Shown here: one piece after another, positions 17,142 to 50,295 of the stretch | Layout: each line of letters opens with the position of its first letter | Numbering within the stretch: position 1 is the first letter of the stretch | Assembly (NCBI RefSeq): GCF_003856835.1 | Contig: NZ_CP034145.1 | Coordinates: forward strand, 2,852,001 to 2,916,000 | Source of the DNA: Haloplanus aerogenes | GTDB lineage: Archaea > Halobacteriota > Halobacteria > Halobacteriales > Haloferacaceae | Direction of reading: 5' to 3' | Length of the DNA: 64,000 nucleotides | Made by a program: the position numbers and the translations under genes | Notes under the pieces: model-generated | What the model was told of the DNA's origin: nothing | The model's input: the letters and a program-made list of their open reading frames with translations, nothing else | Databases searched by the model: none

Positions 17142-17225
17142 GCGTCCACGGGTGACACGCGTCCGAAGGGAACCGAAAAGAAACGCTTAAACAACCGACC
17201 GCGCAAGCAATTGATGCGCTCACCT

Positions 17226-17299
17226 GGGCCAATAGCTCAGTCAGGTTGAGCGCTCGGCTGATAACCGGGAGGTCCGCGGTTCAAATCCGCGTTGGCCCA
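17226..17299 (+). tRNA. tRNA-Ile (GAT)
   Basis: A complete 74-nt cloverleaf. The acceptor stem GGGCCAA pairs with TTGGCCC, with discriminator A. The anticodon arm CTCGG-CTGATAA-CCGGG gives anticodon GAT, and the T-arm is intact. No intron is present. Its last 13 nt (17287-17299) begin an 88-bp segment repeated at 21040, so the gene was the integration target of the element on its right and was restored by the left junction. Confidence 0.97.
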
Positions 17300-17374
17300 T
17301 CCACTGCGCTCACGGTTTCTTGCCGTGGCGCGTTAGGGGCTGATTCCTCCCCAGCCACCTAACTTCGTTCCTAC
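17287..17374. repeat. attL: 88-bp direct repeat, left copy
   Basis: Begins with the last 13 nt of tRNA-Ile and continues 75 nt downstream. It is identical at all 88 positions to 21040-21127 and mismatched just outside on both sides. It contains a small hairpin (CACGG at 17311-17315 with CCGTG at 17323-17327) that could end tRNA transcription. Confidence 0.9.
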
Positions 17375-19966: not shown

Positions 19967-20980
19967 GTGAGCGACGACCTCGACCCACTCTCCCCGGACA
20001 CCGCGCTGGAACTCTATCTCAACCACCGTAGCGGGGAGATTTCCGACCAGACCCTCCAGACCCACCGCTACCGGCTGGGGTCGTTCGTCGAGTGGTGCGA
20101 GGAGAACGATTTCCACAACCTGAACGACATCACCGGGCGTGACCTCCACGCGTACCGCGTCGAGCGGCGGGAGGAGGGCGACCTGAAGCCCGTGACGCTT
20201 CAGGGGCAACTGTCCACGCTTCGGGTGTTCCTGGAGTTCTGCGCGTCTATCGACGCCGTGCCGGACGACCTCCGGTCCAAGATCCTCCTGCCGACGGTCA
20301 GCGGAGAGGAACAGGCGAGCGTAACGACGCTCGACCACGAACGCGCGGAGGCGATTCTGGAGTACCTGGAGACGTATCGCTACGCCTCCCGGGAACACGT
20401 CGTCTTCGCCCTGCTGTGGACTACAGGGATGCGGATGGGAAGCCTCCGAGCAATCGACCTGGAGGACTTCGACCCCGAGTCACCCCACGTCGAACTCGTC
20501 CACCGTCCCGAGACGAGGGCGACGCTGAAGAACAAGAAGCGAGGGGAGCGGTTCGTCGCCCTCTCCTCGGGCATGGCGTCGCTGCTGGAGGACTACGTCG
20601 ACAACGTCCGCCTCGACGCCGAGGACGAATACGGACGCCGTCCGCTCGTCACTACCAACCGGAGACGCCCAGCGACGGGGACGATTCGACACTGGATCTA
20701 CGGCGTCACGCGTCCGTGCCTGCACAGCGAGTGCCCGCACGACCGCGACGTAGAGGAGTGCGATGCGACGGAGTACGACCACGCCAGCAAGTGCCCGTCG
20801 AGTCGGTCGCCCCACAACCTCCGGTCCGGGGCGATCACCGCGCACCTCCTCGACGACGTGCCGGTGGAGATCGTCAGCGACCGGATGAACGTCAGTCAGG
20901 ACATTCTGGACCGGCACTACGACCGCCGGTCACCCCGGGAGAAGATGGAACAGCGCCGCGAATACCTGCGGAATATCTGA
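19967..20980 (+). CDS. Tyrosine recombinase/integrase
   Basis: 337 residues from a GTG start. An N-terminal SAM-like core-binding domain (residues about 12-100, STLRVFLEFC) precedes a catalytic domain carrying the first Arg (WTTGMRMGSLRAID), the H-x-x-R box (SPHNLRSGAI) and the terminal nucleophile region DRHYDRRS. A four-Cys/His segment between them (CLHSECPHDRDVEEC, then ASKC) looks like a zinc-binding insert, as in related haloarchaeal integrases. Its gene ends 59 nt before attR, so it very probably catalysed insertion at tRNA-Ile. Confidence 0.93.
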   Translation: MSDDLDPLSPDTALELYLNHRSGEISDQTLQTHRYRLGSFVEWCEENDFHNLNDITGRDLHAYRVERREEGDLKPVTLQGQLSTLRVFLEFCASIDAVPDDLRSKILLPTVSGEEQASVTTLDHERAEAILEYLETYRYASREHVVFALLWTTGMRMGSLRAIDLEDFDPESPHVELVHRPETRATLKNKKRGERFVALSSGMASLLEDYVDNVRLDAEDEYGRRPLVTTNRRRPATGTIRHWIYGVTRPCLHSECPHDRDVEECDATEYDHASKCPSSRSPHNLRSGAITAHLLDDVPVEIVSDRMNVSQDILDRHYDRRSPREKMEQRREYLRNI

Positions 20981-31259: not shown

Positions 31260-31406
31260 GTGGTCGTCATCGTGACCTGCGAGGAGTGTGGGCGGGGGTA
31301 CTCTCACACCCGCTTCGTCGGCGAACCCGACCGGCACGGCGCCCGGCCGATCCAGTGTCCGAACTGTTACGCGTATCTGGGGCGGACGGAGCAGGAGTCT
31401 GGGTGA
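31260..31406 (+). CDS. Small CPxC-type zinc-finger protein
   Basis: A 48-codon ORF with GTG start encodes two Cys pairs: CEEC (7-10) and CPNC (33-36), a compact zinc-ribbon. It starts 34 nt after the preceding gene. The second GTG (31272) would cut off only four residues. Haloarchaeal genomes carry many such one-domain zinc-finger microproteins. The stop TGA overlaps the 20-nt copy of the tRNA-iMet tail. Confidence 0.55.
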   Translation: MVVIVTCEECGRGYSHTRFVGEPDRHGARPIQCPNCYAYLGRTEQESG

Positions 31407-31553
31407 GCGGGAGGTAGATTTGAACCACGCCGAGACGTTCCTGCTCGCTTCGCTGCGCGGGCTGCGACTCGCCTGGTTCAAATCTACTGGGCATTTTTCG
31501 GCCGACCGGCTCCCTCCTCGCTTCGCTCGTCGGTCGCGGTGTCGGCCGAAAAA
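31406..31553 (-). repeat. tRNA-iMet tail module: tRNA 3'-end copy plus nested inverted repeats
   Basis: The region downstream of tRNA-iMet contains a 20-nt exact copy (31406-31425) of the tRNA's 3' end (31555-31574). A 14-bp inverted T-arm repeat (31414-31427 with 31474-31487) follows, then a second 14-bp inverted repeat (31493-31506 with 31541-31554) abutting the tRNA. The loop includes CTCGCTTCGCTGCGCG (31444-31459), which recurs next to tRNA-Lys. The function is unknown. Confidence 0.75.
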
Positions 31554-31628
31554 TAGCGGGAGGTAGATTTGAACTACCGATCTCCGGGTTATGAGCCCGG
31601 CGGAATCTCCTGGCTATCCCATCCCGCT
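31554..31628 (-). tRNA. Initiator tRNA-Met (CAT)
   Basis: 75 nt. The acceptor stem AGCGGGA pairs with TCCCGCT, giving the A1:U72 pair of archaeal initiators. The anticodon stem CCGGG/CCCGG has three consecutive G:C pairs next to the loop, another initiator hallmark. The anticodon is CAT. No intron is present. Confidence 0.93.
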
Positions 31629-31677
31629 ACCAGCGTCTATCCGCGAGACGGCGTTAAGGGTTTTGAAATCGGAACTG

Positions 31678-49875: not shown

Positions 49876-50110
49876 GTTCTGATCACCTCGAGGGCTGTCG
49901 GTCGAGAGGGAGTAGACGGAACATCTTCGTGTGTACTCCGTGGTCGGCAATCCACCCAAAAGCCAGTTTCTATTCACGCAGAAAAACGTCGTTAAATAGT
50001 GTCACAGAGGAGTGTTATCGGCTATCATGCAGACGATCGGTCGAATGTAGGTGCATTTACTTGTCATTCTAAAATGTCGAATCCAATCGTTTCGTTCGGT
50101 GGTTGGAGAA

Positions 50111-50221
50111 GGCCGGGAGGGAGTTGAACCACGGTCGGACGTGCTCGCTTCGCTGCGCGCGACCTCCCTAGTTCAACTCCTCCGTAGCCGCTTCGCTCCT
50201 CACGTGCGTTCGGAGCAGAAG
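50111..50221 (-). repeat. tRNA-Lys tail module: tRNA 3'-end copy plus inverted T-arm
   Basis: Downstream of tRNA-Lys, 50111-50130 copies 20 nt of the tRNA 3' end (50225-50244) exactly. GGAGTTGAAC (50120-50129) has its reverse complement GTTCAACTCC at 50171-50180. Between lies CTCGCTTCGCTGCGCG (50144-50159), the same 16-mer as in the tRNA-iMet module. A second stem-like segment (near 50185-50220) abuts the tRNA. Function unknown. Confidence 0.75.
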
Positions 50222-50295
50222 CGGGCCGGGAGGGAGTTGAACCCCCGACCGACGGATTAAGAGTCCGTCGCTCTACCTGACTGAGCTACCGGCCC
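50222..50295 (-). tRNA. tRNA-Lys (CTT)
   Basis: 74 nt. Acceptor GGGCCGG pairs with CCGGCCC, discriminator G. The anticodon loop CTCTTAA gives CTT. The T-arm GGGGG-TTCAACT-CCCTC is imperfect but typical. Its 3' end has a 20-nt duplicate 114 nt downstream, as in the tRNA-iMet module. Confidence 0.95.

Follow-up and report, generated by a model that had tools for sequence, protein, structure and literature searches.

Short gene-less units downstream of haloarchaeal tRNA genes carry the 3' end of the tRNA that they follow

Why should a tRNA gene be followed by a second copy of its own 3' end and by an inverted version of its own T-arm? This question is raised by the tRNA-Lys gene of Haloplanus aerogenes, which lies in a 64,000-nt stretch of contig NZ_CP034145.1 (positions 2,852,001 to 2,916,000), hereafter the window. 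The initial annotation reported that tRNA-Lys and the initiator tRNA-Met each carry such a module, with arms specific to the tRNA and a shared loop, and proposed either a recurrent element that, on moving, takes a copy of the end of the tRNA, or a trailer structure kept by selection. In this study, we found that the observation is correct and that the phenomenon is much larger than first noted. On balance we lean, without firm commitment, towards viewing these units as minimal gene-less insertions that form a haloarchaeal family, about 115 bp long and seated exactly at the tRNA 3' end.

The modules of the window

In the window, the 20-nt copy of the tRNA-Lys 3' end is exact (50111-50130), the inverted T-arm lies beyond it, and the loop 16-mer CTCGCTTCGCTGCGCG is identical in the Lys and Met units (Table 1). 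Both modules lie on the tRNA strand, which is the minus strand here. The tRNA-Ile gene (17225-17303), described as lacking the module, indeed has no copy within 330 nt, and the only match to its 3' end in the window is the gene itself. Related Halobacteria do have the module at tRNA-Ile (loci L123 and L124). A Phage_integrase domain match is located at 20327-20614 (+), about 3 kb downstream of this module-free gene.

Table 1. Coordinates of the tRNA genes and unit parts at the Lys and Met loci of the window
Feature	Position	Strand	Details
tRNA-Lys(CTT)	50221..50295	-	ARAGORN; Rfam RF00005, 71.4 bits; nt 53-73 are the duplicated segment
Lys unit, hairpin A (trailer hairpin, loop 1)	50181..50221	-	CTCC-GA-AC-GCAC-GT-GA-GGAG
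Lys unit, inverted T-arm copy	50171..50180	+	GTTCAACTCC on the + strand; complement of the tRNA-sense T-arm
Lys unit, inner hairpin (loop 2)	50131..50170	-	TAGGGAGGTCGCGCGCAGCGAAGCGAGCACGTCCGACCGTG; holds the 16-mer at 50144-50159
Lys unit, direct copy of the tRNA 3' end	50109..50130	-	G53 to about nt 72
tRNA-Met(CAT)	31553..31629	-	ARAGORN
Met unit, hairpin A (loop 1)	31489..31553	-	TTTTTCGGCCGAC...GTCGGCCGAAAAA
Met unit, inverted T-arm copy	31475..31488	+	GGTTCAAATCTAC on the + strand
Met unit, inner hairpin (loop 2)	31427..31474	-	Holds the 16-mer at 31444-31459
Met unit, direct copy of the tRNA 3' end	31405..31426	-	GTTCAAATCTACCTCCCGCT

A search of the 3.5-Mb genome returned the 16-mer five times, and each of these sites follows a tRNA gene at a distance of 60-180 nt (His twice, Met twice, and Lys); the reversed control returned none. 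Rather than being spread broadly away from tRNAs, the 16-mer is found in this genome only beside tRNA genes. The 16-mer was also considered as a free-standing repeat. This reading was rejected, as its look-alike in relatives, which ends in CACGG and sits in CACCCTCCGCTCCGTGCTCGCTTCGCTGCGCGCGCAGCCAC, belongs to a separate family off tRNAs. The CACCCTCCGCTCCGTGCTCGCTTCGCTGCGCGCGCAGCCAC repeat of these relatives (L062, L063, L065, L066, L075, L076, L078) contains the 16-mer and has no T-arm copies.

Anatomy, distribution and turnover of the units

For 45 tRNA genes of H. aerogenes, we inspected the sequence that follows the gene. A copy of the gene's own 19-nt 3' end (up to three mismatches) was present within 330 nt downstream of 18 of them, while upstream flanks gave none, dinucleotide shuffles 0/900 and foreign-tRNA comparisons 0.5%. 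The inverted 12-nt T-arm (at most one mismatch) followed 29% of the tRNAs, as compared with 0% upstream, 0% in shuffled sequences and 2.3% for foreign tRNAs. With a looser cut, a full copy was found within 600 nt of 23 of the 45 genes, eight of which have two or more. In this genome, about half of the tRNA genes bear one or more units of about 115 bp on the tRNA strand, and a chance origin of the copies is ruled out by the shuffle, upstream and foreign-tRNA controls.

Read in RNA sense, the tRNA is followed by hairpin A, which starts from the discriminator, then by the inverted T-arm, the inner hairpin and the direct copy of the 3' end. Units have a median length of 115 bp, with a 5-95% range of 92-205 bp. 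In a set of 136 modules drawn from many genera, agreement of the direct copy with its own tRNA is 88-100% at each position from G53 to nt 73, and complementarity of the inverted arm is limited to nt 54-64. At positions that vary among tRNAs, this arm is specific to its own tRNA and thus covaries with the adjacent gene. Agreement with the own tRNA versus the control is 0.95 versus 0.50 at nt 57, 0.96 versus 0.67 at nt 59, and 0.76, 0.66 and 0.57 versus 0.51, 0.41 and 0.26 at nt 62, 63 and 64, reaching the control level from nt 65-66 onward. Pairing in P1 amounts to 88.7%, against 79.0% after shuffling (shuffle maximum, 80.8%). Over nt 54-64, fidelity is 86% for the inverted arm and 97% for the direct copy. 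Moreover, where the copy has drifted, the arm agrees with the tRNA more often than with the copy (29 versus 9), which suggests that the present hairpin is not strictly maintained. We also considered an inverted copy of the entire 3' end and rejected it. Since the stem reaches the acceptor end in only about 25% of filled loci (8% with foreign ends), our claim for the arm is limited to nt 54-64.

The conserved core adjoining the T-arm is CAGGGAG...CGACCGTGG. It had been proposed that the loop follows the module; this holds only in part, for the deep conservation lies in the core, and the 16-mer belongs to just one common version of the loop family that the core closes. A K-turn reading of CAGGGAG/CGACCGTGG was discarded because the required 3-nt bulge is absent, as judged from the sequence. 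In 89 units compared by eye, no matching terminal inverted repeats were seen at the unit ends, and in an Rfam scan only tRNA reached the threshold, with no match to rtT or any other described RNA family. Three variants were noted in passing. A second type of downstream unit, found at Ala, Arg and Gly tRNAs (L019, L026, L088, L109, L111), consists of a hairpin GTCCC..TCGCTC..GCGGGAC and then a partial copy that comprises the acceptor end but no T-arm. A nested double hairpin of about 55 bp (GAGACGCGAACGAAGTGAGCGTCTCGGTATGGCGAACGGCGGAGCCGTGAGCCAGCGAG) occurs within unit loops at Val, Lys, Gly and Arg tRNAs (L020, L023, L084, L102, L105, L106, L182). Finally, units of about 266 bp at tRNA-Phe (L025, L163) add a 26-nt copy of the tRNA-Phe anticodon-arm region, in exact tandem in L025.

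The core pattern is present in 193 of 292 haloarchaeal genomes, representing 61 of 77 genera, and the reversed pattern in none. In a sample taken across the phylum, it was detected in 27/53 haloarchaea and in 0/242 other genomes. All 37 core loci that were fetched, comprising 30 loci plus seven named ones (Halorarius litoreus, Halorubrum salipaludis, H. amylolyticum, H. aidingense, a Halorubrum MAG, Haloarchaeobius iranensis and a Halovenus MAG), sit behind a tRNA whose sequence the arms match, at a distance of 40-180 nt; the exception to this spacing is the Halorubrum MAG locus, where the core lies in the second unit of an array. No description of units copying tRNA ends in this way was found in the open-access literature searched, from which they are apparently missing.

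Comparison of three sister genomes revealed that occupancy differs at many tRNAs. The Thr(GGT) site is filled in genome G000 and exactly empty in G002 and G003, while Arg(TCG) is filled in G002 and exactly empty in G000. Behind Ser(TGA), G002 has three different units in tandem and G003 has none. These exact pairs and the three different tandem units argue for insertions and against scars of large islands. Together with the position-specific match of the 136 modules to their own tRNAs, the precise sites substantiate the idea of a recurrent element with arms matching the local tRNA. The same empty site, however, is equally obtainable by a clean slippage deletion between the 21-bp repeats, and each pair may reflect either a gain or a loss. 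Elsewhere in G003, about ten tRNA-like genes are packed in 1.5 kb of a 429-kb contig (G003:C1:401628-403110; L224), which resembles the tRNA clusters of viruses or plasmids.

Rearrangement is also evident within arrays. At tRNA-Lys, two units, A and B, occur in several orders and also as hybrids, truncated units are found, and exact tandem repeats are present at His (x2), Leu (x3) and Val (x4). After masking, unit similarity is 0.276 for the same tRNA across genomes, and for different tRNAs it is 0.108 within a genome and 0.102 between genomes. The units thus cluster by tRNA, not by genome, and form tRNA-specific lineages that rarely switch tRNA, which fits the sequences better than frequent hopping between tRNAs. 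Such lineages explain why the arms follow the tRNA, and no copying step at each move is needed. Of the initial idea of an element that copies the tRNA end, the element is supported in outline, and the copying is an inference.

Predicted folds of circularised units are unbranched rods in 61/75 cases versus 72/225 after shuffling, with a mean z of -4.3. In the predicted rod, the tRNA 3' end and the inverted arm pair to form the stem, and the own 3' end gives a stabler circular fold than a foreign one in 65 of 75 comparisons (mean, -6.9 kcal/mol; p = 4e-12). Very stable loops of single-stranded DNA are known with the motifs c(GNA)g, c(GNNA)g and c(GNAB)g, which differ from the stable loops of RNA. 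Of the mini-hairpins with flanking tandem GA on the tRNA strand, 41 have triloops, 35 of which are c(GNA)g, and 25 have tetraloops, which include 14 GNNA and 8 GNAB, with no GNRA and no UNCG. Such tandem-GA mini-hairpins are rare on the antisense strand and across the window at large. The loop motifs may point to DNA-level recognition, as a hint and not as proof, for TTT or TTC loops, which are not DNA-type motifs, are common among the short inner hairpins.

Insertion elements, DNA dynamics and trailer structures

Our best explanation, which we put forward tentatively, is that of a non-coding, non-autonomous insertion element that recombines at the tRNA T-loop and 3' end and is probably recognised as a folded single strand. 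A unit would enter or leave by recombination between its own 3'-end copy and the 3' end of the gene, and, to judge from the boundary of the copy, the junction would fall at the 5' edge of the T-loop. An intact tRNA would remain because the unit supplies an identical 3' end. The inverted arm may fold the single strand so that the attachment core, that is, the T-arm beside CAGGGAG/CGACCGTGG, becomes double-stranded in an attC-like manner, and such folding would explain the need for a match between arm and tRNA. The enzyme would act in trans from outside the unit, a resident tyrosine recombinase being the leading putative candidate. Tyrosine recombinases were found in all 17 genomes tested; as core-free genomes have them too, the evidence is permissive only. 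One genome (G020) has four core modules and a single tyrosine-recombinase match, and in one genus (g40) integrases are present and the core module is absent. Losses and exact tandem copies are explicable by replication slippage from one 21-nt repeat to the other, and template switching could keep the arms matched. We class the units with the small non-coding mobile repeats, as a new family of this broad kind. It is rather doubtful that they amount to a new class of mobile DNA, in which cassettes of about 115 nt would exist as folded single-strand rods or dumbbells, with the tRNA 3' end as both attachment site and hairpin arm, in integron-like arrays across haloarchaea.

The same rearrangements could arise in the absence of any dedicated enzyme, by template switching at the quasi-palindromic T-arm, by slippage that expands, corrects and deletes units, and by strain-to-strain recombination at tRNA genes. 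The direct-inverted-direct order, the exact tandem repeats, the hybrid and truncated units, the ease with which arms would be corrected to the local tRNA and the tRNA-specific lineages all agree with such dynamics. Alone, however, they cannot yield the same 16-nt core beside different tRNAs in 61 of 77 genera, nor can they by themselves explain the restriction to haloarchaea or the unlike units in one array. We regard this account as unlikely.

A structure of the pre-tRNA trailer maintained by selection is, in our view, improbable. Here, the inverted T-arm would pair with the tRNA or with the 3'-end copy acting as a decoy, steering folding, 3' processing or termination. On this account, the units would duplicate in tandem and would be swapped through homologous recombination. 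That the units always lie on the same strand directly downstream of tRNAs is what this account predicts, and so are a core conserved throughout the class, the covariation with the own tRNA and P1 pairing above that of shuffles. At invariant positions of the arm, transitions that keep a G.T wobble outnumber those giving A.C (33 versus 10), an excess that fits any single strand, RNA included. Nevertheless, a unit is missing from half of the tRNAs and from entire orthologous loci, and three unlike tandem units can stand behind one tRNA. Besides, the arm does not track the copy (29:9 in favour of the tRNA), the faithful acceptor copy (nt 66-73) falls outside the hairpin, and GNRA is found in 0/14 of the GNNA loops, with no UNCG.

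Two further accounts invoke known machineries. The units might be passengers of a known transposase, either of the IS200/IS605-type Y1 family or of Cas1/casposases with target duplication at the tRNA 3' end. PATEs are small palindromic IS605-derived elements of haloarchaea (PMC3119063), and casposases insert at tRNA 3' ends with duplications of 14-15 bp and accept short single strands (PMC6977970). Yet the duplication here is 21 nt and not 14-15, and terminal inverted repeats were not seen. When two tables over the same 292-genome sample were compared by reading, without a formal statistic, Y1 matches were absent in six carriers (G020, G147, G045, G054, G061, G132) and present in core-free genomes of g40. 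Likewise, Cas1 is absent in 11 of the 13 carrier genomes examined (G000, G002, G006, G008, G013, G020, G053, G062, G075, G089, G147). Since Y1 and Cas1 are missing from many carriers, neither is required, and we consider this origin very improbable. Least probable of all are ordinary attachment-site scars of large integrated viruses or islands. Integrases classically target tRNA 3' ends and leave partial tRNA copies behind (PMC8371274, PMC9897764). Here, however, the inserts measure about 115 bp, no island separates the two copies, and the window contains no additional copy. The inserts also have a conserved non-coding core, an inverted arm and precise empty sites, and searches of plasmids and phages with the Lys unit and of viral contigs with the core pattern gave no match.

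Up to half of the tRNA genes of haloarchaeal genomes are trailed by turnover-prone units made in part of the sequence of their own tRNA. If mobile, the insertion units that we favour would rank with the smallest known insertion elements, their own arms encoding the recognition of the target, and would allow single-strand site-specific recombination to be tested in archaea. Should selection maintain them, they would add a new layer to tRNA 3'-end biology. Either way, they would account for partial tRNAs and trailer hairpins in the annotation of haloarchaeal genomes.

Relation to known systems

Archaeal elements with tyrosine recombinases, of the SSV, pT26-2 and SNJ2 types, integrate in tRNAs (PMC8371274). 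Like them, the units target the 3' part of the tRNA, restore it, leave a partial copy at the far end of a precise insertion and form tRNA-specific lineages. Unlike them, the units are about 115 bp long and gene-less, have a conserved hairpin core and an inverted T-arm matched to each tRNA, and stand behind up to half of the tRNAs. Integrase and cargo are not carried, units of 92-205 bp being too short for an integrase.

Short gene-less mobile repeats are represented by the Haloquadratum SMRs, MITEs and PATEs, the mobilisation of SMRs being described as enigmatic; SMRs and MITEs have terminal inverted repeats, and PATEs have near-terminal palindromes and no target duplication (PMC3119063). The units differ in being tRNA-specific, with arms derived from the target. 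By eye, 89 of them show none of the terminal inverted repeats of MITEs and SMRs, nor do the units follow the Y1 dependence of PATEs or RAYT/REP elements, given carriers without Y1 and core-free genomes with it. Casposons also insert at tRNA 3' ends, with a 14-15-bp duplication, terminal inverted repeats and cas1solo (PMC6977970). The units share with them the location and the duplication of the target, which is 21 nt here, and many carriers are without Cas1.

In Escherichia coli, the 178-bp repeats of tyrT, which give rtT RNA, lie in tandem downstream of the tRNA, each with a tRNA 3' end. The units are likewise arranged as tandem repeats downstream of a tRNA gene and contain its 3' end. The tyrT/rtT case concerns one locus, and we know of no inverted T-arm or class-wide conserved core in it. 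Lastly, integron attC sites are imperfect single-strand hairpins in which folding makes the recombination core, and their cassettes form arrays behind one primary site. The units have no cassette genes, and their arms are tRNA sequence instead of R and L boxes. Like attC, they stand in arrays behind one site, here the tRNA, and are predicted to fold as imperfect single-strand hairpins with a conserved bulged core in the stem, where the crossover would take place to judge from the copy boundary.
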